A DNA stretch of 64,000 nt, from assembly GCF_040796495.1 (NCBI RefSeq), contig NZ_JBFNQN010000001.1, forward strand, positions 310,001 to 374,000, given 5' to 3'. A program made the translations under genes and the position numbers. Position 1 is the stretch's first letter; each line of letters begins with the position of its first letter. Of the stretch, positions 31,122 to 63,613 are shown in pieces. The notes beneath the pieces were generated by a model that made no database searches, had not been told where the DNA came from, and saw nothing but the letters and a program-made list of their open reading frames with translations. Origin of the DNA: Kineococcus endophyticus. Lineage in GTDB: Bacteria; Actinomycetota; Actinomycetes; Actinomycetales; Kineococcaceae.

Positions 31122-32902
31122 GCGGGTGAGGCTACCGCCGTCGCCGCCAGTCGGCTCCGTGCCCAGCCCGCCCCGCGCACCGGGCACGTCCAGGGCGAGG
31201 TGTCCGGGTCCTGCACGGCGACGAGGCGCACCCCCGGCTGCTCGAGCCAGCCGAGGAGCGCGTCGGTCTCCTCCACCAGCAGGCCGGGGCGCCCCGGTCC
31301 GGGCGGGGCGACGACCTCGCCGGTGGCCCGCAGCGCCTCGATGTGCGGCATGGGATCGGACCCGCGCGGGGTCAGGCACGTCCCGGCCAGCCGCCCGTAG
31401 CGGATGAGCACGACCTCCCACCCGCCCGTCGGCCAGCCGGGCGTCGGCGCGCTGCGGCGGGCGGCGACGATCTCCGGGCTCGCCGCCACCGGGCCGCGCC
31501 GCTGGGCGCGGTCGGCGGCCTGCAGGAACGCCTCGAGGCGGTCGCGGGTGCCGGCGGCCTCCTCGTAGCGCTCCTGGGCGGCGAGGGTCGTCAGCCGCGC
31601 CCGCCCGTGCTCCAGCGTGGCGGCGGCGTCCTCGCGCAGGGCCCGGCGGACCTGCTCGACGACCTCGGCGTACGACTGCGCGTCCTGCCCGCCGCGCGCC
31701 GTGCCCAGGCAGGGCGCCCCGCAGCGGCCGATCTCGGCCAGCACGCAGGCTCCCTCCCCGTCGGCCTTCGGCACGCGCGGGATGCGCCGGGTGCACTGCC
31801 GCAGCGGGTGGACGTCGTGCAGCGCGGCGACGGCCAGCTCGGCCGTGCGGGCCGAGCGGAACGGTCCGAGGTACTCCGCGCCCTCGGCCGTGTCGTCGCG
31901 GACCTGCTTGACGAGGGAGAGGCGCGGCCACGCGTCGGCCGTGAGCTTGACCCAGGTGACCTTCTCGGGGGCCTTGGAGCGCCGGTTGTACGGCGGGGCG
32001 TGCTCGGCGATGAGGCGCAGCTCCCGCACACGCGCCTCCAGCGGCGTCTCGCACACGACCGGCACCACCGTCGTCGCCGCGCGGACCATCTCGGTCATGC
32101 GCGGGCGGCTCTCCGAGGCCGTGAAGTAGGACCGGACCCGGCGGTGCACGTCGACCGACGTCCCCACGTAGAGCACGCGGCCGACGGCGTCGCGGAACTG
32201 GTAGACCCCCGGCGCCGACGGCAGGCCGACGGCGAGGTGCTTCTTGGCCCGGCGGGCCGGGTTGACCGCCGTCGCGGTGAACGCCGCCAGGTCCTCCAGG
32301 GAGTGCACACCCCGGTTGCCCACCCGGGCCAGCAGCGCGTGCAGGACGTCGACCGTGGCGCGGGCGTCGTGCAGGGCGCGGTGGTCGGGGGTCGTGGTGG
32401 TGCCGAACAGGCGCGCGAGCGTCCCGAGCTTGCGGTTCGGCGCCTCGTCGCGGTCGACGAGCTGGCGCGCCAGCACGACGGTGTCCACGACCCGTGGACC
32501 CGGCCACGGGCGGCCGGTGAGGGTGCAGGCCGCCTTGAGGAAGCTGACGTCGTACGGGGCGTTGTGGGCGACCAGCACGGCCCCGCGGTCGAAGCCGGCG
32601 AACTCCAGGAAGCTCGGCAGCACCTCCGGCGTCGAGGGGGAGGCCGCCACCATCCGGTTGGTGATGCCGGTCAGGACCTGCACGAAGGCGGGGATGGGGG
32701 AGGCGGGCCGCACGAGCGTCTGGAACTCCCCGAGGACCTGACCGCCGCGGACCTTCACGGCGCCGATCTCGGTGATCTCCGCCCCCGACGGCGGCCCGCC
32801 GGTCGTCTCGAGGTCGAGGACGACGAAGGTCACGTCCGCCAGCGGCTGCCCGAGGTCCTCGAAGCTGGCCTGGAAGCTCGCGGGTGCGGTGGTGCCGGGC
32901 AT
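31118..32902 (-). CDS. DEDD exonuclease fused to GIY-YIG / UvrC-like nuclease (Rv2191-type)
   Basis: A 594-aa two-nuclease protein. Residues about 22-190 form a DnaQ-like 3'-5' exonuclease: first acidic motif V-L-D-L-E-T-T-G, later VAHNAPYDVSFL and the terminal H-x4-D in DHRALHDARATVD. A GIY-YIG domain begins near 228 (GVYQFRDAVGRVLYVGTSVDVHRRVRSYF), with the Cho/UvrC N-terminal layout and a cysteine cluster (QCTRRIPRV, GEGACVLAEIGRCGAPCLG). It resembles mycobacterial Rv2191. Incision plus trimming in DNA repair is the likely role. The promoter carries a DNA-damage-type motif. Confidence 0.9.
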   Translation of the reverse strand: MPGTTAPASFQASFEDLGQPLADVTFVVLDLETTGGPPSGAEITEIGAVKVRGGQVLGEFQTLVRPASPIPAFVQVLTGITNRMVAASPSTPEVLPSFLEFAGFDRGAVLVAHNAPYDVSFLKAACTLTGRPWPGPRVVDTVVLARQLVDRDEAPNRKLGTLARLFGTTTTPDHRALHDARATVDVLHALLARVGNRGVHSLEDLAAFTATAVNPARRAKKHLAVGLPSAPGVYQFRDAVGRVLYVGTSVDVHRRVRSYFTASESRPRMTEMVRAATTVVPVVCETPLEARVRELRLIAEHAPPYNRRSKAPEKVTWVKLTADAWPRLSLVKQVRDDTAEGAEYLGPFRSARTAELAVAALHDVHPLRQCTRRIPRVPKADGEGACVLAEIGRCGAPCLGTARGGQDAQSYAEVVEQVRRALREDAAATLEHGRARLTTLAAQERYEEAAGTRDRLEAFLQAADRAQRRGPVAASPEIVAARRSAPTPGWPTGGWEVVLIRYGRLAGTCLTPRGSDPMPHIEALRATGEVVAPPGPGRPGLLVEETDALLGWLEQPGVRLVAVQDPDTSPWTCPVRGAGWARSRLAATAVASPA

Positions 32903-32909
32903 GGGGCGG

Positions 32910-32933
32910 ACGCTAGGCGAGCGCTCCGACACG
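32910..32933 (-). promoter_or_regulatory. PafBC-type DNA-damage promoter of the DEDD/UvrC-like nuclease gene
   Basis: Minus strand: GTGTCGGAG, 8 nt, TAGCGT, then 7 nt to ATG 32902. This matches the spacing of the RecA-independent damage promoter (TTGTCRGTG-N8-TANNNT) with 7 of 9 motif positions. Confidence 0.6.
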
Positions 32934-33720: not shown

Positions 33721-33736
33721 TCGAACCCCTGTTCGA
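33721..33736. promoter_or_regulatory. LexA (SOS) box
   Basis: TCGAAC-CCCT-GTTCGA is an exact match to the Gram-positive/mycobacterial SOS consensus TCGAAC-N4-GTTCGA. It lies 77 bp before the small Cys-protein start and 127 bp before the divergent DUF4328 start. The rightward gene is the more likely target. Confidence 0.7.
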
Positions 33737-49596: not shown

Positions 49597-50718
49597 TCAG
49601 CGGAAGCGGGCCTGCAACGTCTGGACGTTCGCGACGTAGCGCCGGGTGTCGTCGTACATCCCGCGGGAACGGACCGAGGCCTGCCCCTGGTAGTACGACG
49701 CGATCGCGACGTCCGGCGGGTTGTTGGCGACGAGCGTGCGCAGGATCGCGACGCCGGCCTTGGCGTTGTCGCGGGCGTCGAAGAGGTCGATGGGTTCCCC
49801 GAGCAGGTTCGAGGCCCACTCGCCCGAGCTCGGGATGACCTGCATCGCCCCGATGGCGTTGGCGTGCGAGACGACCTTCATCTGGAAGCCCGACTCCTGC
49901 ATGCCGATGGCCAGGGCGAGGGAGGGGTCCACCCCGAGCCGCACGGCCGTCGAGCGGATGATCTCCCGCATCTCCGCCTTGCTCGGCTGCTTGCTCGCCT
50001 GGATGCGGGCGCGGTTGGTCGAGACGGCGTCCGAGACGGCGGGAGCCTGGGTGGTGGGCTTCGGCGTCGTGGCCGGCTTGGCCGACTGGCCCGCGGCGCC
50101 GGTGCGCAGCGTCTGGCCCTCGACGATGAAGCCGGCCGCGTCGAGGCCGTTGAGGGCCACCAGGTCGGCCACGCTCGTCCCCGTCGTCAGGGCGATGTGC
50201 GAGAGCGTGTCACCGGCCGCGACGGTGTAGGTGCCGCCCGCCGCGGGGGCGCGCCCGCCCGAGGTCGAGGCCCCGGCCGTGCCGCCGGGCAGCGTCAGCA
50301 CCTGACCGGCCCGCAGGAAGCCGTCGGCCGAGAGCCCGTTCGCGTCGCGCAGAGCACCGACGGTCGTGCCCTGCGCCAGGGCGATGTGGGAGAGCGTGTC
50401 GCCGTCCTGCACGGTGTACGAGCCGCCCCCCGACGTGCTCTGCGGCCCCGGGACGCGCAGCTGCTGCCCCTCGACGACGAAGGCGTCCGCACCCAGCCCG
50501 TTGGCCGTGACGACGGCGTCGACGGTGGTGCCGTGCGCGGCCGCGATGGCCCCGACGGTGTCCCCGGCCTCGACGGTCACCACGGTCTCGCCCGGGGCCG
50601 CGGCGGCGTGCGCGGCGGGGACGAGGGCGGTGGGGGCGGCGGCGCCGACGAGCGCGGCGGCCAGCCAGCGTCCGCGACGCGCACCGGGGGTGGGGGTGTC
50701 AGTGGTCTCGTCGGCCAT
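49597..50718 (-). CDS. LysM lytic transglycosylase
   Basis: A 373-aa secreted wall hydrolase. An N-terminal signal peptide (LAAALVGAAAPTALVPAAHA) precedes three LysM peptidoglycan-binding repeats (about 45-90, 98-142, 160-204), a Pro/Thr linker and a C-terminal SLT domain. Catalytic Glu lies in A-I-G-M-Q-E-S-G-F-Q; AIGAMQVIPSS is typical of the fold. ATG 50718 is preferred over upstream in-frame starts because of the signal peptide. It neighbours the PASTA kinase, and its promoter carries the damage-type motif. Confidence 0.9.
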   Translation of the reverse strand: MADETTDTPTPGARRGRWLAAALVGAAAPTALVPAAHAAAAPGETVVTVEAGDTVGAIAAAHGTTVDAVVTANGLGADAFVVEGQQLRVPGPQSTSGGGSYTVQDGDTLSHIALAQGTTVGALRDANGLSADGFLRAGQVLTLPGGTAGASTSGGRAPAAGGTYTVAAGDTLSHIALTTGTSVADLVALNGLDAAGFIVEGQTLRTGAAGQSAKPATTPKPTTQAPAVSDAVSTNRARIQASKQPSKAEMREIIRSTAVRLGVDPSLALAIGMQESGFQMKVVSHANAIGAMQVIPSSGEWASNLLGEPIDLFDARDNAKAGVAILRTLVANNPPDVAIASYYQGQASVRSRGMYDDTRRYVANVQTLQARFR

Positions 50719-50783: not shown

Positions 50784-50806
50784 AACCTAGCGGACCCCTC
50801 CGACAC
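50784..50806 (-). promoter_or_regulatory. PafBC-type DNA-damage promoter of the LysM transglycosylase gene
   Basis: Minus strand: GTGTCGGAG, 8 nt, TAGGTT. The predicted transcript starts near 50777 and has a leader of about 60 nt. On the other side, GGTGACCGG is repeated at 50849 and 50869. Confidence 0.55.
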
Positions 50807-50912
50807 TCCGCCGTCCACGATGTCGGAGGAGCAGCGCCGAGCACGGGAGGTGACCGGGCGCGTCGCGCGGTGACCGGTGTCGTCCCCGCGGCGGACACGG
50901 CAGACTGGTGGG

Positions 50913-51308
50913 GTGGTTGCACCGCTGAGAGCAGAGATCGCCCGGGAGAAGAGCACCGAGGAGCTGGACGGCCTCGTCCCGGAGTGGCTGACCGTCCCCG
51001 ACGTCGCCGAGCGGACCGGCCAGGACCAGCGCGTCGTGCGTCGCTGGCTGCAGGAGCGCGAGCTCGTCGCGGTCCGGCGGGGCGAGCGCTCCGTGGCCCA
51101 GGTCCCGGCCGCGTTCGTCACCGACGAGGGGCCGCTGAACCACCTCAAGGGGACCCTGTCGGTCCTCATGGACTCGGGGTACACCGACGTGGAGGCGCTG
51201 GCCTGGCTCTTCACTCCTGACGACACCCTGCCGGGGACCCCCATCGACGCGCTGCGGGCCAACCGCAAGACCGAGATCCGGCGACGGGCCCAGGCGCTCA
51301 GCTTCTGA
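50913..51308 (+). CDS. Rv2175c-like winged-helix DNA-binding protein
   Basis: A 131-aa regulator. Residues about 27-72 form the helix-turn-helix (WLTVPDVAERTGQDQRVVRRWLQERELVAVRRG), followed by the conserved C-terminal domain (VPAAFVTDEGPLNHLKGTLSVLMDSGYTDVEALAWLF). In mycobacteria Rv2175c is phosphorylated by PknL, encoded next to it; here the PASTA kinase gene lies 1.4 kb away. GTG 50913 is the plausible start. Its target genes are unknown. Confidence 0.87.
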   Translation: MVAPLRAEIAREKSTEELDGLVPEWLTVPDVAERTGQDQRVVRRWLQERELVAVRRGERSVAQVPAAFVTDEGPLNHLKGTLSVLMDSGYTDVEALAWLFTPDDTLPGTPIDALRANRKTEIRRRAQALSF

Positions 51309-54943: not shown

Positions 54944-54972
54944 GCACTCTAGGCATGACCCCCGACACGGGC
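54944..54972 (-). promoter_or_regulatory. crtEIB promoter with PafBC-type damage motif
   Basis: Minus strand: GCCCGTGTCGG, 8 nt, CCTAGAGTGC. It contains GTGTCGGGG-N8-TAGAGT (7 of 9 motif positions, exact N8). The same two blocks at the same spacing occur at the cruF promoter (59060-59088). Confidence 0.65.
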
Positions 54973-55033
54973 GAACGGACGTCGGTGCTGGTCACAGGCA
55001 GGTCACGGGGGGTCGTCTCCTACGGTGGGAGGC

Positions 55034-55684
55034 GTGGTGATGGACCGGGAGGCGTACCTGCAGCGCTGGAGCGCGCTGCACGGCGGCACGCACGCCAACG
55101 CGCTGGTGCGCGGCTGGCTCAGCGGCGCCCACGTCCTGGCCCGACCCCTGGCGGCGGCCGGGACGGCGCCCTGGGTCGTCACCCTGGTCGGCGCGGCGCT
55201 GGCCGTCGCCGCCGCGGCGCTCGCCGTCGCGGGTGGTCGCGGCGGGGCCGCCGCCGTGGGGGCCGGGGTGCTGCTCGCCGCGGCCGGGGTCTTCGACAAC
55301 CTCGACGGTGCCGTGGCCGTCATGACCGGCCGCACCTCCCGGCGGGGCGCGCTGCTCGACGCCGTCGTCGACCGGATCGGCGACGGCGCCTGCGCCGTCG
55401 TGCTCTGGGGGTGCGGGGCCCCGGCGTGGCTCGTCCTCGTCGCCGGTGGCCTGGCGCAGCTGCAGGAGTACGTCAGGGCTCGGGCGCAGGGCCTGGGCGT
55501 GGACGACGTGACCGTCGTCTCGGTCGCCGAACGTCCCGTCCGCCTGGCCCTGGCGGCGAGCTGCGCCATCGCCACGGCCATCGTCGTCTGGCTCGACTGG
55601 GCGACCCTGGGGGCCGGGGTCTGGGCCGTCCTCGGGCTCATCGGCATCGTCCAGGTGACCGGCGCGGTGGTCCGCCGGCTCTGA
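55034..55684 (+). CDS. CDP-alcohol phosphatidyltransferase family protein
   Basis: A 216-aa membrane protein with about six helices. The CDP-alcohol motif D-N-L-D-G-A-V-A-V followed by G-A-L-L-D-A-V-V-D is recognisable, but the usual Arg after the first block (DGxxAR) is Val. It may make a phospholipid from CDP-diacylglycerol or a related CDP-alcohol. GTG 55034 is 7 nt after TACGGT (55021-55026). It lies within the carotenoid region between the two operons on the opposite strand. Confidence 0.78.
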   Translation: MVMDREAYLQRWSALHGGTHANALVRGWLSGAHVLARPLAAAGTAPWVVTLVGAALAVAAAALAVAGGRGGAAAVGAGVLLAAAGVFDNLDGAVAVMTGRTSRRGALLDAVVDRIGDGACAVVLWGCGAPAWLVLVAGGLAQLQEYVRARAQGLGVDDVTVVSVAERPVRLALAASCAIATAIVVWLDWATLGAGVWAVLGLIGIVQVTGAVVRRL

Positions 55685-55696
55685 GCCGCGCCGCCC

Positions 55697-57157
55697 TCAG
55701 GCGGGGCCGACGAGGTCGGTGACGATGCGCGCCGAGAGCCCCACGAGCGGCAACCCCCCGCCCGGGTGCGACGACCCGCCCACCAGGAACAGCCCCGGGA
55801 CGGGAGAGCGGTTGGCCGGGCGCAGGAACGCCGAGCGCGCCCCGTTGCTCGCCGTGCCGTAGATCGCGCCCCCGTCGCTGCCGGTGCGTTCTTCCAGGTC
55901 GGCCGGGGTGCGGACTTCCGCCCACCGCAGCCGGGACCGCACGTCCAACCCGCGGCGGGCGAGCGCGTCGAGGACGACGTCGGTGTGCCGGCGCACCAGG
56001 TCCTCCGAGCGCCAGTCCGTGCCGCCGTGCTGCGGGTCGTGGACGGGCGCGTTGACCAGGACGAACCACGCCTCGGTGTCGTCCGAGGGCCGTAGCGCAG
56101 GGTCGTCCGGGGCGCTGACGTAGACGGTCGGGTCGGCCACGGGACGGCCCGCGGCGAGGTCGGCGAACTCCGCGTCGTAGTCGTCGGGGAAGAGCACGGT
56201 GTGGTGCCGCAGCCCGGGGGTGCGGCCCTCCAGGGCCAGCAGCAGGACGAACCCCGAGCTGGACCGCAGCCGGCGCGGCGGCCGCAACCGGGGCCGGGGC
56301 AGCAGGTCGCCGTAGAGCCGGGCGGCGTCGACGGCCGAGACGACGACGTCGGCCCGCACCTGCCTCCCGTCGGCCAGCCGCACGCCCGCCGCCCGGCCGC
56401 CCTCCTCCAGCACGCGGTCGACGGGGGCGTCCGTCGTGATGCGCGCCCCGCGCTCGCGGGCGCGGTCGGCCACCGCCTGGGCCAGCAGGTGCAGGCCGCC
56501 GCGCACGTACCAGGCGCCGAAGGCCTGCTCGACGAACGGGACGGTGGCCAGCGCCGCGGGGGCCCGGCCCGGGTCGGACCCGGAGTAGGTCGCGTAGCGG
56601 TCCAGCAGTGTCCGCAGCCGCGGGTCATGCAGGTACTGGCGCCCCACGCCCCGCAGCGACGACCACGGCGCGACCGTCCGCAGCCCGCGGACGTCCTTCG
56701 CCAGGCGCAGCAGCGTCTTCGGCCCCTCGAGGGCGGACTCCAGGAACGGTTCGCGCGCCACGTCCCAGATCTCGGCCGCGCGGCGCTGGAACGCCGTCCA
56801 CTGCGCCCCCGTGCCCGCGCCCAGCGCGTCGTCGAGCGCACGCGCCACCTGCGGCAGCCCGCCGCCGGGCAGGTCGACCTCGGTCCCGTCGGCGAAGCGG
56901 TAGTGGGCCACCGGGTCCAGCTGGACGACGTCGAGCACGGACTCGACGGGGTCGCCGGTCTTGAGGAACAGGTCGCGCTGGACCGCCGGGAGCGTCAGCA
57001 GCGAGGGGCCGGTGTCGAAGGAGAAGCCGTCCCGGCTGAACCAGCCGAGCTTGCCGCCCACCTGCGGCCCCTGCTCGAAGACCTCGACCGCGTGCCCCTG
57101 CGCGGCGAGGCGTGCCGCGACCGACAACCCGCCGAACCCGGCGCCGACGACCACCAC
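55697..57157 (-). CDS. CrtI-family carotenoid oxidoreductase (probable CrtD-like desaturase)
   Basis: A 486-aa FAD protein. Dinucleotide motif V-V-V-G-A-G-F-G-G-L-S-V at residues 1-13; DTGPSLLTLPAV and a C-terminal GGSSHPGGGLPLVGLSARIV resemble CrtD/CrtI-type enzymes. Grouping with a CruF-like hydratase and a glycosyltransferase suggests C-3',4' desaturation of a 1'-hydroxy carotenoid; a ketolase-type activity is possible. GTG 57157 is 5 nt after the glycosyltransferase stop. Confidence 0.8.
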   Translation of the reverse strand: MVVVGAGFGGLSVAARLAAQGHAVEVFEQGPQVGGKLGWFSRDGFSFDTGPSLLTLPAVQRDLFLKTGDPVESVLDVVQLDPVAHYRFADGTEVDLPGGGLPQVARALDDALGAGTGAQWTAFQRRAAEIWDVAREPFLESALEGPKTLLRLAKDVRGLRTVAPWSSLRGVGRQYLHDPRLRTLLDRYATYSGSDPGRAPAALATVPFVEQAFGAWYVRGGLHLLAQAVADRARERGARITTDAPVDRVLEEGGRAAGVRLADGRQVRADVVVSAVDAARLYGDLLPRPRLRPPRRLRSSSGFVLLLALEGRTPGLRHHTVLFPDDYDAEFADLAAGRPVADPTVYVSAPDDPALRPSDDTEAWFVLVNAPVHDPQHGGTDWRSEDLVRRHTDVVLDALARRGLDVRSRLRWAEVRTPADLEERTGSDGGAIYGTASNGARSAFLRPANRSPVPGLFLVGGSSHPGGGLPLVGLSARIVTDLVGPA

Positions 57158-57162
57158 GCGGC

Positions 57163-58266
57163 TCAGAGCGACCGCCCCTTCCAGACCAGGCCGCCACGGC
57201 GGCGGCGGCGCCAGGAGTCCCCGAGCAGCCCGAGCAGCAGCGCCACCGAGGCGGGGTGCCAGAACGCGTCCGGCACGGAGCGACCACCGGTGCGCTCGGC
57301 CGCCGCGTACCGCCCGACGACCCCCGCGAGGTAGCCGACGGCGCCGACGGGGGAGCCGGCCAGCGCCGCGGCCGGCGGGACGAGGTACGTCACGACGAGC
57401 CCGGCGCCGACGGCCGCGGCCGCCGGGGCGGAGCCGAACGCGGACCAGAGCGACTTGGTGTACCCGTCCCGCAGGTCCCCCCAGCCGCCGTACATCCGGC
57501 AGGTGGCCAGCGCGGTCCCGTCGGCGACGCCGCCGCGACCGCCGACGGCCTTGACCGCCCGCAGCAGCGCGAGGTCGTCCAGCACCTCACCCCGCACGGC
57601 CGCGTGCCCGCCCGCCCGGCGGTACGTGGCGGCGTCCACGACGAGGAACTGCCCGTTCGCCGCCGCCAGCGACGGCCGGGGCGAGACCTCCGCCCTCCGC
57701 AGCGGCAGCGTCGTCAACCACGACCACTGCAGCAGCGGCTGCACGAGGCGTTCGCTCCACGTCAGCGCGAGCTGCCGGGGGTAGGGGCAGACCACGTCGA
57801 GACCGGTGCGGCGCAGCAGGTCCACCGCCGCCGCCACCGCGTGCGGGGCGAGCACGACGTCCGCGTCCACGAACACGAGCACCTCGCCCGTCGCGTGGCC
57901 GGCGGCCTCGTCGCAGGCCGAGGTCTTGCCCAGCCAGCCCGGGCGCGGCCCGCCGCTGCGGACCAGCCGCACCCGCGGGTCGGCCGCCGCGAAGGCCTCG
58001 ACCACCTCGGCCGTCCGGTCGCTCGAGGCGTCGTCGACGACGACGACCTCGTAGTCGGGGACCTCGACCTGGTCGAGCAGGGAGGCCAGGCACGCCGGCA
58101 GGTCCTCCTCCTCGTCGCGCGCGGGGACGAGGACGCTGACGCGGCCCGGCACCGGGGGCGGGTCCAGGACCGGCACCCGCAGGCCGCGGGCGTTGAGCAG
58201 CGAGTGCACCGTGAGCGCGACGGCGCTCGCCGACCCGGCCCAGGTCAGGGCGCGCCACGCCCTCAC
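57163..58266 (-). CDS. GT2 glycosyltransferase (carotenoid-linked, CruG-like)
   Basis: A 367-aa GT-A enzyme. Donor-binding motifs: SVLVPARDEEEDLPACLASL, VVVDDASSDRTAEVV and the metal D-x-D in V-F-V-D-A-D-V. A hydrophobic N-terminal segment and two to three C-terminal helices suggest membrane association. Its place between cruF and the crtD-like gene makes glycosylation of a hydroxylated carotenoid the likely reaction. GTG 58266 overlaps the cruF stop by 4 nt. Confidence 0.82.
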   Translation of the reverse strand: MRAWRALTWAGSASAVALTVHSLLNARGLRVPVLDPPPVPGRVSVLVPARDEEEDLPACLASLLDQVEVPDYEVVVVDDASSDRTAEVVEAFAAADPRVRLVRSGGPRPGWLGKTSACDEAAGHATGEVLVFVDADVVLAPHAVAAAVDLLRRTGLDVVCPYPRQLALTWSERLVQPLLQWSWLTTLPLRRAEVSPRPSLAAANGQFLVVDAATYRRAGGHAAVRGEVLDDLALLRAVKAVGGRGGVADGTALATCRMYGGWGDLRDGYTKSLWSAFGSAPAAAAVGAGLVVTYLVPPAAALAGSPVGAVGYLAGVVGRYAAAERTGGRSVPDAFWHPASVALLLGLLGDSWRRRRRGGLVWKGRSL

Positions 58267-59054
58267 GGGCGCGTGCCCCGGCCGGCCAGGACCGAGCGCA
58301 GGTAGGGCAGGACGGTGAGGCCCATGGCGACGCCGCCGTAGGCGGCGACCACCGGCCGCCGGAAGAACACCGCGTTGCCGAGCGTGGACCCGAGCCACGT
58401 CCAGCCCAGGAGGACCGCGGGGACGGTCTGCGGCGCGGTCGTGCCGGGGGTGTCGCGGGTCGTGGCGTGCGCAGCGCCGCAGATGGCCACCGCCGTCAGC
58501 AGCCAGCCGGCGTAGTTGGTCAGGGGGATCCCCGGCACGCCGGGCAGGTGCGGCCGCGGCGTCTGGAAGGCCCAGTGCCCGGCAGCCGTCATCTGCGGGT
58601 CGAGGAAGAGGTCCCAGGACGCGAGCGTCCACGCTGCGGTCGCGACCGTCGCGACGTCCCGGACCCCGGCCGGCAGGTCCCTCGCGAGGTGCCGCCCGAG
58701 CCGCACCGAGGGGTGGGCCATCATCGTCCAGGCCAGCGGCACCACGACGGGCACGTCGAGCACCTGGGGGCCCAGCGTCCCCGCGTAGCGGTACGGGCCG
58801 AAGGGGCGGCCCGTCCGCGTCCCGACGGCCTCGGCGACGAGCCCGAGACCCCCGGCGACGGCGAGCGTCGTCGCGGCCGCGCGGGGCCCGCCCCGACGTG
58901 CGGCGTCCGTCACCGACGCCGCCGCGAAGGCGACGACCGACCCGATCGTGGTCCGGCGCAACCTCTCCCCGCGCAGCAACGGGTGAGCGACCTGGGTGAG
59001 CACGGCCCCGGCCGCGAGGGCACCGCTGAGCGTCCGGGACAGGGAGGAGGGCAC
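58263..59054 (-). CDS. cruF: Carotenoid biosynthesis protein (CruF-like hydratase, DUF422)
   Basis: A 263-aa membrane protein with about seven helices, resembling CruF/bisanhydrobacterioruberin hydratase, which adds water across the C-1',2' double bond of psi-end carotenoids. The stretch FGPYRYAGTLGPQVLDVPVVVPLAWTMMAHPS and ASWDLFLDPQMTAAGHWAF (Asp/His-rich) are family marks. GTG 59054 is preferred over 59084 because it follows TAGAGT by 7 nt. It heads the cruF-GT2-crtD operon. Confidence 0.85.
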   Translation of the reverse strand: MPSSLSRTLSGALAAGAVLTQVAHPLLRGERLRRTTIGSVVAFAAASVTDAARRGGPRAAATTLAVAGGLGLVAEAVGTRTGRPFGPYRYAGTLGPQVLDVPVVVPLAWTMMAHPSVRLGRHLARDLPAGVRDVATVATAAWTLASWDLFLDPQMTAAGHWAFQTPRPHLPGVPGIPLTNYAGWLLTAVAICGAAHATTRDTPGTTAPQTVPAVLLGWTWLGSTLGNAVFFRRPVVAAYGGVAMGLTVLPYLRSVLAGRGTRP

Positions 59055-59059
59055 GGCGA

Positions 59060-59088
59060 GCACTCTAGGAGCGGGGTCCGACACGGGC
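59060..59088 (-). promoter_or_regulatory. cruF operon promoter with PafBC-type damage motif
   Basis: Minus strand: GCCCGTGTCGG, 8 nt, CCTAGAGTGC. Identical to the crtE promoter in both blocks (21 of 29 bp fixed, same spacing). GTGTCGG ends exactly 10 nt before TAGAGT. Confidence 0.65.
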
Positions 59089-63030: not shown

Positions 63031-63046
63031 TCGAACCGGTGTTCGA
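63031..63046 (+). promoter_or_regulatory. LexA (SOS) box
   Basis: TCGAAC-CGGT-GTTCGA, an exact consensus match, immediately downstream of the predicted -10, where LexA would block initiation. The operon it controls encodes DUF6504 and HEPN proteins typically linked to error-prone polymerases. Confidence 0.8.
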
Positions 63047-63196
63047 ACATGATGAGACCGCTCGAGGCGCGGTCCGGGGAGAGGGGAAGCTCCGCGGGCC
63101 GCGCCCCGAGTGCGTGCTCGCGAGCCGCTTCCCCCGGCTCGCCGCACCGCGCGCTCCGCCGCGGTGCCGGCTCGAGACAGGGGAAGGGTGACGACG

Positions 63197-63613
63197 GTGC
63201 GACGGTTCTCCGACGCGGTGCACGTCCGCTACGGCGATGCGGACGAGGGGGAGGAGACCCCCGTGCAGTTCATCTGGCGCGGGCGGCTCTACGTCGTCCG
63301 CGAAGTCCTCTCCCGCTGGCGCGAGCGCAGCGCCTGGTGGGAGCACGCGGCCGTGGCCGCTGTCCACGGTGACGTCACCGACTCCGACGCCACCGGCCCG
63401 GGCGGGCGGCCCGCCCGCCGCCGCGTCCTCGAGATCGGCGACCTCGAACGCGAGGTCTTCCGCGTCGAGGCCAGCGTCGGCCGGGCGGGCGGCGCCGGCG
63501 TCTACGACCTCGCCCGCGCCGTCGCCCCGGGGACGGCGGCCGTGTCGGAGGTCGCTGGTACCTCTTCGTCCGAAGCGTCGGGGGACTGGCAGCTGCTGCG
63601 CGTCAGCGACTGA
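63197..63613 (+). CDS. DUF6504 family protein
   Basis: A 138-aa protein with the DUF6504 pattern: RRFSDAVHVRYGDADEGEETPVQFIWRGRLYVVREVLSRWRERSAWW. GTG 63197 is preferred because GGAAGG lies 9 nt upstream; GTG 63188 is also in frame. In actinobacteria such genes often precede Y-family polymerase or DnaE2 genes. The perfect upstream LexA box supports a DNA-damage role, probably as an accessory of an error-prone polymerase encoded beyond this window. Confidence 0.8.
   Translation: MRRFSDAVHVRYGDADEGEETPVQFIWRGRLYVVREVLSRWRERSAWWEHAAVAAVHGDVTDSDATGPGGRPARRRVLEIGDLEREVFRVEASVGRAGGAGVYDLARAVAPGTAAVSEVAGTSSSEASGDWQLLRVSD

Follow-up and report, generated by a model that had tools for sequence, protein, structure and literature searches.

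The two carotenoid biosynthesis operons found in a 64,000-nucleotide stretch of the Kineococcus endophyticus genome (contig NZ_JBFNQN010000001.1, positions 310,001 to 374,000; hereafter, the window) are preceded by promoters resembling those through which PafBC controls the RecA-independent DNA damage response of mycobacteria. The operons, crtE-crtI-crtB and cruF-GT2-crtD, are likely members of the PafBC regulon: as judged from sequence comparisons, they certainly belong to it in the design of their promoters, and at least cruF-GT2-crtD, probably also crtE-crtI-crtB, would belong to it in function. That the promoters are of the PafBC type had been proposed by a sequence-only reading of the window, and the proposal is supported by the rarity of the motif and its frequency ahead of repair genes, by its preference for a 10-nt spacing, by the corresponding boxes at the recA, uvrA and uvrB orthologues, and by the presence of both PafB and PafC. 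PafBC is known for the control of DNA damage genes, and the genus Kineococcus comprises radiation-resistant and desert species.

Scanning the window for GCCCGTGTCGG-N8-CCTAGAGTGC, with up to three mismatches allowed, returned two matches, both exact and both on the minus strand, which are located upstream of crtE-crtI-crtB (54944-54972) and of cruF-GT2-crtD (59060-59088); none occurred in 100 shuffles. The claim of the sequence-only reading that both operons share an exact motif with an 8-nt spacer was thereby confirmed, as was its placement of GTGTCGG 10 nt from TAGAGT at both promoters. Pattern scans and orthologue comparison delimit the PafBC-type promoters on the minus strand as 54946..54968 for crtE-crtI-crtB (GTGTCGG at 54962-54968, N10, –10 hexamer TAGAGT at 54946-54951) and 59062..59084 for cruF-GT2-crtD (GTGTCGG at 59078-59084, N10, –10 hexamer TAGAGT at 59062-59067). 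The mycobacterial promoter is quoted in PMC5656591 as tTGTCRgtg, 8 nt and TannnT; the likeness to it that had been claimed holds in that the spacing is exactly 8 nt and the core TGTCR is intact at crtE and cruF. Seven of the nine letters of the published box are matched at crtE and six at cruF, and the recA and uvr boxes of Kineococcus mostly begin with G too.

With the start codons as chosen, the GTG of crtE (54939) follows the end of the –10 hexamer at a distance of 6 nt, and that of cruF (59054) at 7 nt. Since an in-frame GTG follows so closely, both transcripts are probably leaderless. A general class of –10 elements was considered as an explanation of the shared CCTAGAGTGC and rejected, because CCTAGAGTG is not enriched genome-wide (10 sites, compared to 10 for the reversed controls); lack of enrichment indicates that the shared CCTAGAGTGC is particular to the two crt promoters.

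Pfam matches agree with the gene names that had been assigned to both operons, all genes being on the minus strand. The first comprises crtE, coding for a polyprenyl synthase (PF00348; 53815..54939, GTG start), a crtI-like gene coding for a desaturase of the amino-oxidase type (PF01593; 52283..53818), and the phytoene synthase gene crtB (PF00494; 51327..52286). The second consists of cruF (PF04240, carotenoid biosynthesis protein; 58263..59054, GTG start), the gene of a GT2 glycosyltransferase (57163..58266), and a crtD-like desaturase gene, again of the amino-oxidase type (PF01593; 55697..57157).

The sequence-only reading had named equal frequency of the motif at promoters without a damage response as the observation that would speak against it. 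In the window's own genome (G000; 5.04 Mb in 46 contigs), the motif proved to be rare, selective in its spacing, and concentrated ahead of repair genes. GTGTCGG-N10-TANNNT has 25 sites, as compared to 3 for the reversed control, and all 12 family genomes compared contain 10 to 25 sites each, with 0 to 3 for the reversed controls. When the spacing between TGTCGG and TANNNT was left free from 6 to 16, 38 matches were obtained, 29 of them with N10 and the remaining 9 distributed over ten other spacings, as counted from the listed lengths. A start codon lies six to eight nt past the end of the –10 hexamer at 15 of the 25 sites; a sixteenth (L011) was recognized by eye. NCBIfam assigned replication or repair genes downstream of 11 of the 25 sites, namely recA, uvrA, uvrB, uvrC, mfd, ruvA, polA, dnaX, dnaE, and the genes of a RarA-like ATPase and of a DEDD exonuclease partly resembling UvrC, whereby the matches for the RarA-like protein, mfd, polA and uvrA are below the curated cut-offs and the mfd, polA and uvrA sequences compared were partial. 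A twelfth downstream gene showed only a calcineurin-like phosphoesterase match. Two sites are those of the crt operons, and the other targets include ftsH, dprE1, a drrA-type ABC transporter gene, an S9 peptidase gene, a gene coding for a LysM/transglycosylase protein, and oxidoreductase genes (the labels FprA-like and SbcD-like are presumptive). Judged by these placements, GTGTCGG-N10-TANNNT is the PafBC (RecA-NDp) promoter.

Similar sets of targets are observed in relatives. All 18 sites of genome G001 were assigned, to uvrA, uvrB, polA, ruvA, mfd, recA, recO, recR, dnaG, a SNF2-type helicase gene, cruF and seven others, and all 11 sites of G003 to recA, uvrA, uvrB, polA, ruvA, mfd, the DEDD exonuclease gene, a recO-like gene, crtE and two others. 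The recO-like gene of G003 (L217) was named by eye; its product is presumed to be RecO-like from the resemblance of its first residues to those of L204. The non-repair genes dprE1 and drrA-type ABC transporter are preceded by the PafBC-type pattern in both G000 and G001. A GTGTCGGGGC[TC]CGGGACTAGCAT site is common to G001, G002, G005 and G008, and is located before a Clp ATPase gene in G001 (G001:C1:1761812-1761834).

The regulator itself is encoded by the genome. Two adjacent genes on G000:C8 code for WYL proteins, which correspond to PafB and PafC in comparisons with solved PafBC chains (PafB: 9fnd, 5.7e-68, and 6sj9, 1.2e-61; PafC: 6sj9, 7.8e-63, and 7p5x, 2.7e-56). Genes presumed to be those of a proteasome subunit, PafA, tatA and tatC are situated in the same stretch.

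To place the crt boxes within the family, orthologous promoters were compared. "Genus" denotes here the window's genus as placed, excluding G011 (K. xinjiangensis), which falls in another genus of the family; among the relatives within the genus are G006 (K. rubinsiae), G008 (Kineococcus sp. TRM81007) and G010 (K. vitellinus), and G004 is presumably K. radiotolerans. The recA box is exact and equally spaced in 12 of 12 family genomes, the uvrA box is exact in 11 of 12 and carries one change in the other, and the uvrB box is exact in 10 of 10 found (the gene was not found in 2 of the 12 stretches). The uvrC gene was found in 7 of the 12 stretches and not in the other 5, and its box matches at between 5 and 7 of the 7 bases. 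Conservation at cruF is about as loose as at uvrC: 5 to 7 of 7 bases are present at exactly N10 in all 9 genus genomes having the gene, with GTGTCGG occurring three times (G001 and G009 are among the genomes with an exact box); the fragmented assemblies of G002 and G007, which gave no CruF match, were not counted. When GTGTCGG was slid along the 9 aligned cruF promoters, the mean match was 6.0 of 7 at N10, 3.4 at the next best offset, and 2.2 over all offsets (standard deviation 0.8). No well conserved block is present at –35 in these nine promoters.

Outside the genus, the cruF promoters of more distant relatives in the order lack such a box, as judged by eye. Another 87 loci around CruF relatives, totalling 1.1 Mb and comprising 7 order relatives and the best 80 of 410 (4 of the 80 named Kineococcus), contained three matches to [TG]TGTC[AG]G-N10-TANNNT and none to the reversed control; two of the three are not followed by the start of a frame of at least 90 codons within 120 nt, and the third by a weak start 107 nt on. 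A plasmid collection contained no CruF relative. At the sensitivity of exact patterns, there is no sign of a link between PafBC box and carotenoid genes beyond the genus, within which PafBC control of the pigment-tailoring cruF operon looks ancestral.

The crtE promoter appears to have a different history. Its box is exact in two of nine anchored genus promoters, those of this genome and of G003, which are sister taxa with a support of 1.000 in a tree of RecA, UvrA and CrtE; no anchored crtE promoter was obtained for G010 and G002, which, like G011, are left out of the crtE counts. Both operons carry an intact box in this genome only, G003 combining its exact crtE box with a 5-of-7 box at cruF, and in the other species of the genus the cruF box alone is kept, often in degenerate form. 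Since the cruF box is genus-wide and the crtE box is exact only in the two sisters, the simplest history is one in which the former looks ancestral and the latter recently gained in the clade of G000 and G003. At crtE, the –10 hexamer, the start region and a –35-like element are all conserved across nine aligned promoters. The –35-like element (54970..54976, minus strand; columns –25 to –19 of the alignment) reads GTTCGCC here and G[TCG]T[CA]GC[CA] in the genus, lies 18 bp before TAGAGT, and is also present in genus species without a PafBC box at crtE. Because the box appears to have arisen inside a promoter that already possessed this conserved element, crtE may be read independently of PafBC as well.

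Specificity was assessed by scoring. A set of 363 kb, consisting of the window and the crt and uvr regions and therefore target-rich, as the regions were picked by gene position, contained 116 candidate promoters of the leaderless type. Five or more box matches were present in 44 of them, which belong to uvrA (11), uvrB (10), uvrC (7), cruF (9), crtE (2), the DEDD exonuclease gene (1) and 4 others. Setting aside the 40 promoters of the named genes leaves 76 candidates, of which four have at least 5 matches, one of the four having 6, and none has 7. A matrix of 14 positions with a maximum of 23.1, trained on 41 repair promoters, gave 21.0 for both crt promoters of this genome, within the range of 19.0-22.6 found for uvrB. 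Out of 724,936 positions, 40 scored at least 16, and three of these belong to neither the training set nor the crt set, namely those of the DEDD exonuclease gene, the LysM gene of the window, and a LysM-like gene in G009. Orthologous promoters are not independent of each other, hence no combined P value was calculated.

In mycobacteria, according to PMC11804915, PafBC is activated by single-stranded DNA, the helix-turn-helix of PafB contacting the –26 motif and PafC binding to domain 4 of SigA. By analogy, DNA damage in Kineococcus would generate single-stranded DNA that is loaded onto PafBC, which would then connect the –26 box with domain 4 of SigA, in the manner of mycobacterial sigma adaptation. 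The layout of the crt promoters, in which a PafBC box near –26 is combined with the SigA-type –10 hexamer TAGAGT, would suit this mode of activation, and leaderless transcription of the crt genes would rise together with that of recA and uvrABC. We infer that PafBC binds to and activates the crt promoters and that pigment increases after damage. The PafBC-type promoter would be the main promoter of cruF; at crtE, where the box is situated between the –35-like element and the –10 hexamer, the promoter may be capable of basal as well as damage-induced transcription. We lean towards the broader view that carotenoid synthesis in Kineococcus is part of the RecA-independent damage response, the control of the cruF operon being ancestral and a seven-base box at crtE having added the whole pathway in one clade, so that repair and antioxidant pigment would be raised together. 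If so, the association of carotenoids with survival of radiation and desiccation would no longer be a correlation but a direct, testable regulatory link, and the regulon would have expanded when a promoter acquired a single short box.

Several observations weigh against assigning the crt operons to the PafBC regulon. The AGG which follows GTGTCGG at the recA, uvrA and most uvrB sites is missing at the crt sites, and the genes downstream of 14 of the 25 sites are outside the NCBIfam repair and replication assignments, these 14 sites, crt included, having no evident repair role. Seven of the nine anchored crtE boxes are inexact (5 of 7 bases in G005, 1 to 4 of 7 in six), and G011 is without both crt boxes (3 of 7 at the cruF position). 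Weak cruF boxes are those of G003 (CCGTCGG, 5 of 7, matrix score 12.9) and of G004 (GTGCCGC, 11.5), the latter genome also lacking a crtE box; background is common at that level, 12 of 51 positions scoring at least 12 and 34 of 74 scoring at least 10 being outside the training and crt sets, so that these two sites are not callable by score alone. An earlier matrix of 23 positions gave only 3.6 to 5.8 for cruF of G004, G006 and G008, as compared to at least 19.7 for the repair promoters; it was judged to be over-fitted to the spacers and was replaced by the 14-position matrix. Moreover, a gene coding for an Rv2175c-like winged-helix protein with a weak HTH_17 match (50877-51308, plus strand) faces crtB, and this DNA-binding-type protein might regulate the pigment genes locally.

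A narrower form of the PafBC assignment, which overlaps with it, would have the cruF operon as the sole working target, the crtE box being recent and perhaps neutral and crtE-crtI-crtB being driven by the –35-like element. The contrast between retention of the cruF box in 9 of 9 genomes (5 to 7 of 7 bases) and an exact crtE box in 2 of 9 anchored promoters, together with the conservation of the –35-like element, suits this form, which we nevertheless consider rather unlikely: both sisters have a complete crtE box, 7 of 7, at the exact spacing, even though their spacers differ in 2 of 10 letters, and a full match is absent from the 76 candidates outside the listed boxed promoters. It is quite improbable that the box is real but read by another regulator, such as another WYL protein or one of the ClgR type, in a promoter class shared with repair genes and independent of PafBC. 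The genome does contain 8 WYL matches, just two of which are the PafB/PafC pair, and ClgR recognizes the P1 promoter in mycobacteria according to work cited in PMC5656591. However, the placement of the box at recA, uvrA and uvrB is that of the PafBC motif, and the work summarized in PMC11804915 puts PafB on the –26 motif. Chance occurrence of GTGTCGG in GC-rich sequence ahead of two ordinary SigA promoters is consistent with the fact that the crtE promoters of the genus have retained TAGAGT and the surroundings of the start codon much better than the box; it is very improbable all the same and is disfavoured by the spacing and reversed-pattern controls. Chance would yield roughly one site per spacing genome-wide, as nine matches fell on ten other spacings, yet both operons of one pathway carry the box, and cruF keeps at least 5 of 7 bases in 9 of 9 genus genomes.

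The PafBC assignment may be set against known systems. The PafBC/RecA-NDp (P1) regulon of mycobacteria shares with the Kineococcus sites the TGTCR core, the 8 nt to TannnT, recA and repair genes as targets, and the encoded PafB and PafC; it differs in that its box begins with t instead of G, and two carotenoid operons are among the sites here. The actinobacterial regulators CrtR (MarR type) and LitR/CarH (MerR type) likewise act on the transcription of crt operons, but respond to isoprenoid pyrophosphates or light (PMC5401885, PMC6739363); no match to the MarR or MerR family by name was obtained for the 20 window proteins scanned against Pfam, which represent part of the genes between about 40.5 and 63.8 kb. 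K. radiotolerans is orange-pigmented and extremely radiation-resistant, and crtB and crtI homologues appear in its radiation-resistance table (PMC2587704). In the literature searched, mostly open-access papers surveyed by title and the beginning of the abstract, no link of PafBC or DNA damage to carotenoid operons was seen; PafBC and carotenoids occurred together in one paper on Bacillus and relatives, which mentions PafBC by name only.

Control by the SOS (LexA) regulon, which also responds to DNA damage, was rejected for the crt operons, because the LexA-type palindrome is missing at both promoters; the scan of the window found it at 33721 and 63031 only.

Two further PafBC-type sites are present on the minus strand of the window. 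One (32910..32932; pattern scan) precedes the gene of the DEDD exonuclease with the UvrC-like part (start at 32902) and is also exact in the sister genome G003. The other (50784..50806; pattern scan, Pfam) is located 65 nt before the LysM/transglycosylase gene (49597-50718, start at 50718), which adjoins the crt cluster; in G009, a comparable site (L055, minus strand, 392) lies ahead of a gene resembling it. The LexA-type palindromes (TCGAAC-N4-GTTCG) occupy positions 33721-33735 and 63031-63045, the second directly before a DUF6504 gene (63110-63613), and what we take by eye to be a DinB-like gene is situated further to the right of it (L226:7105).

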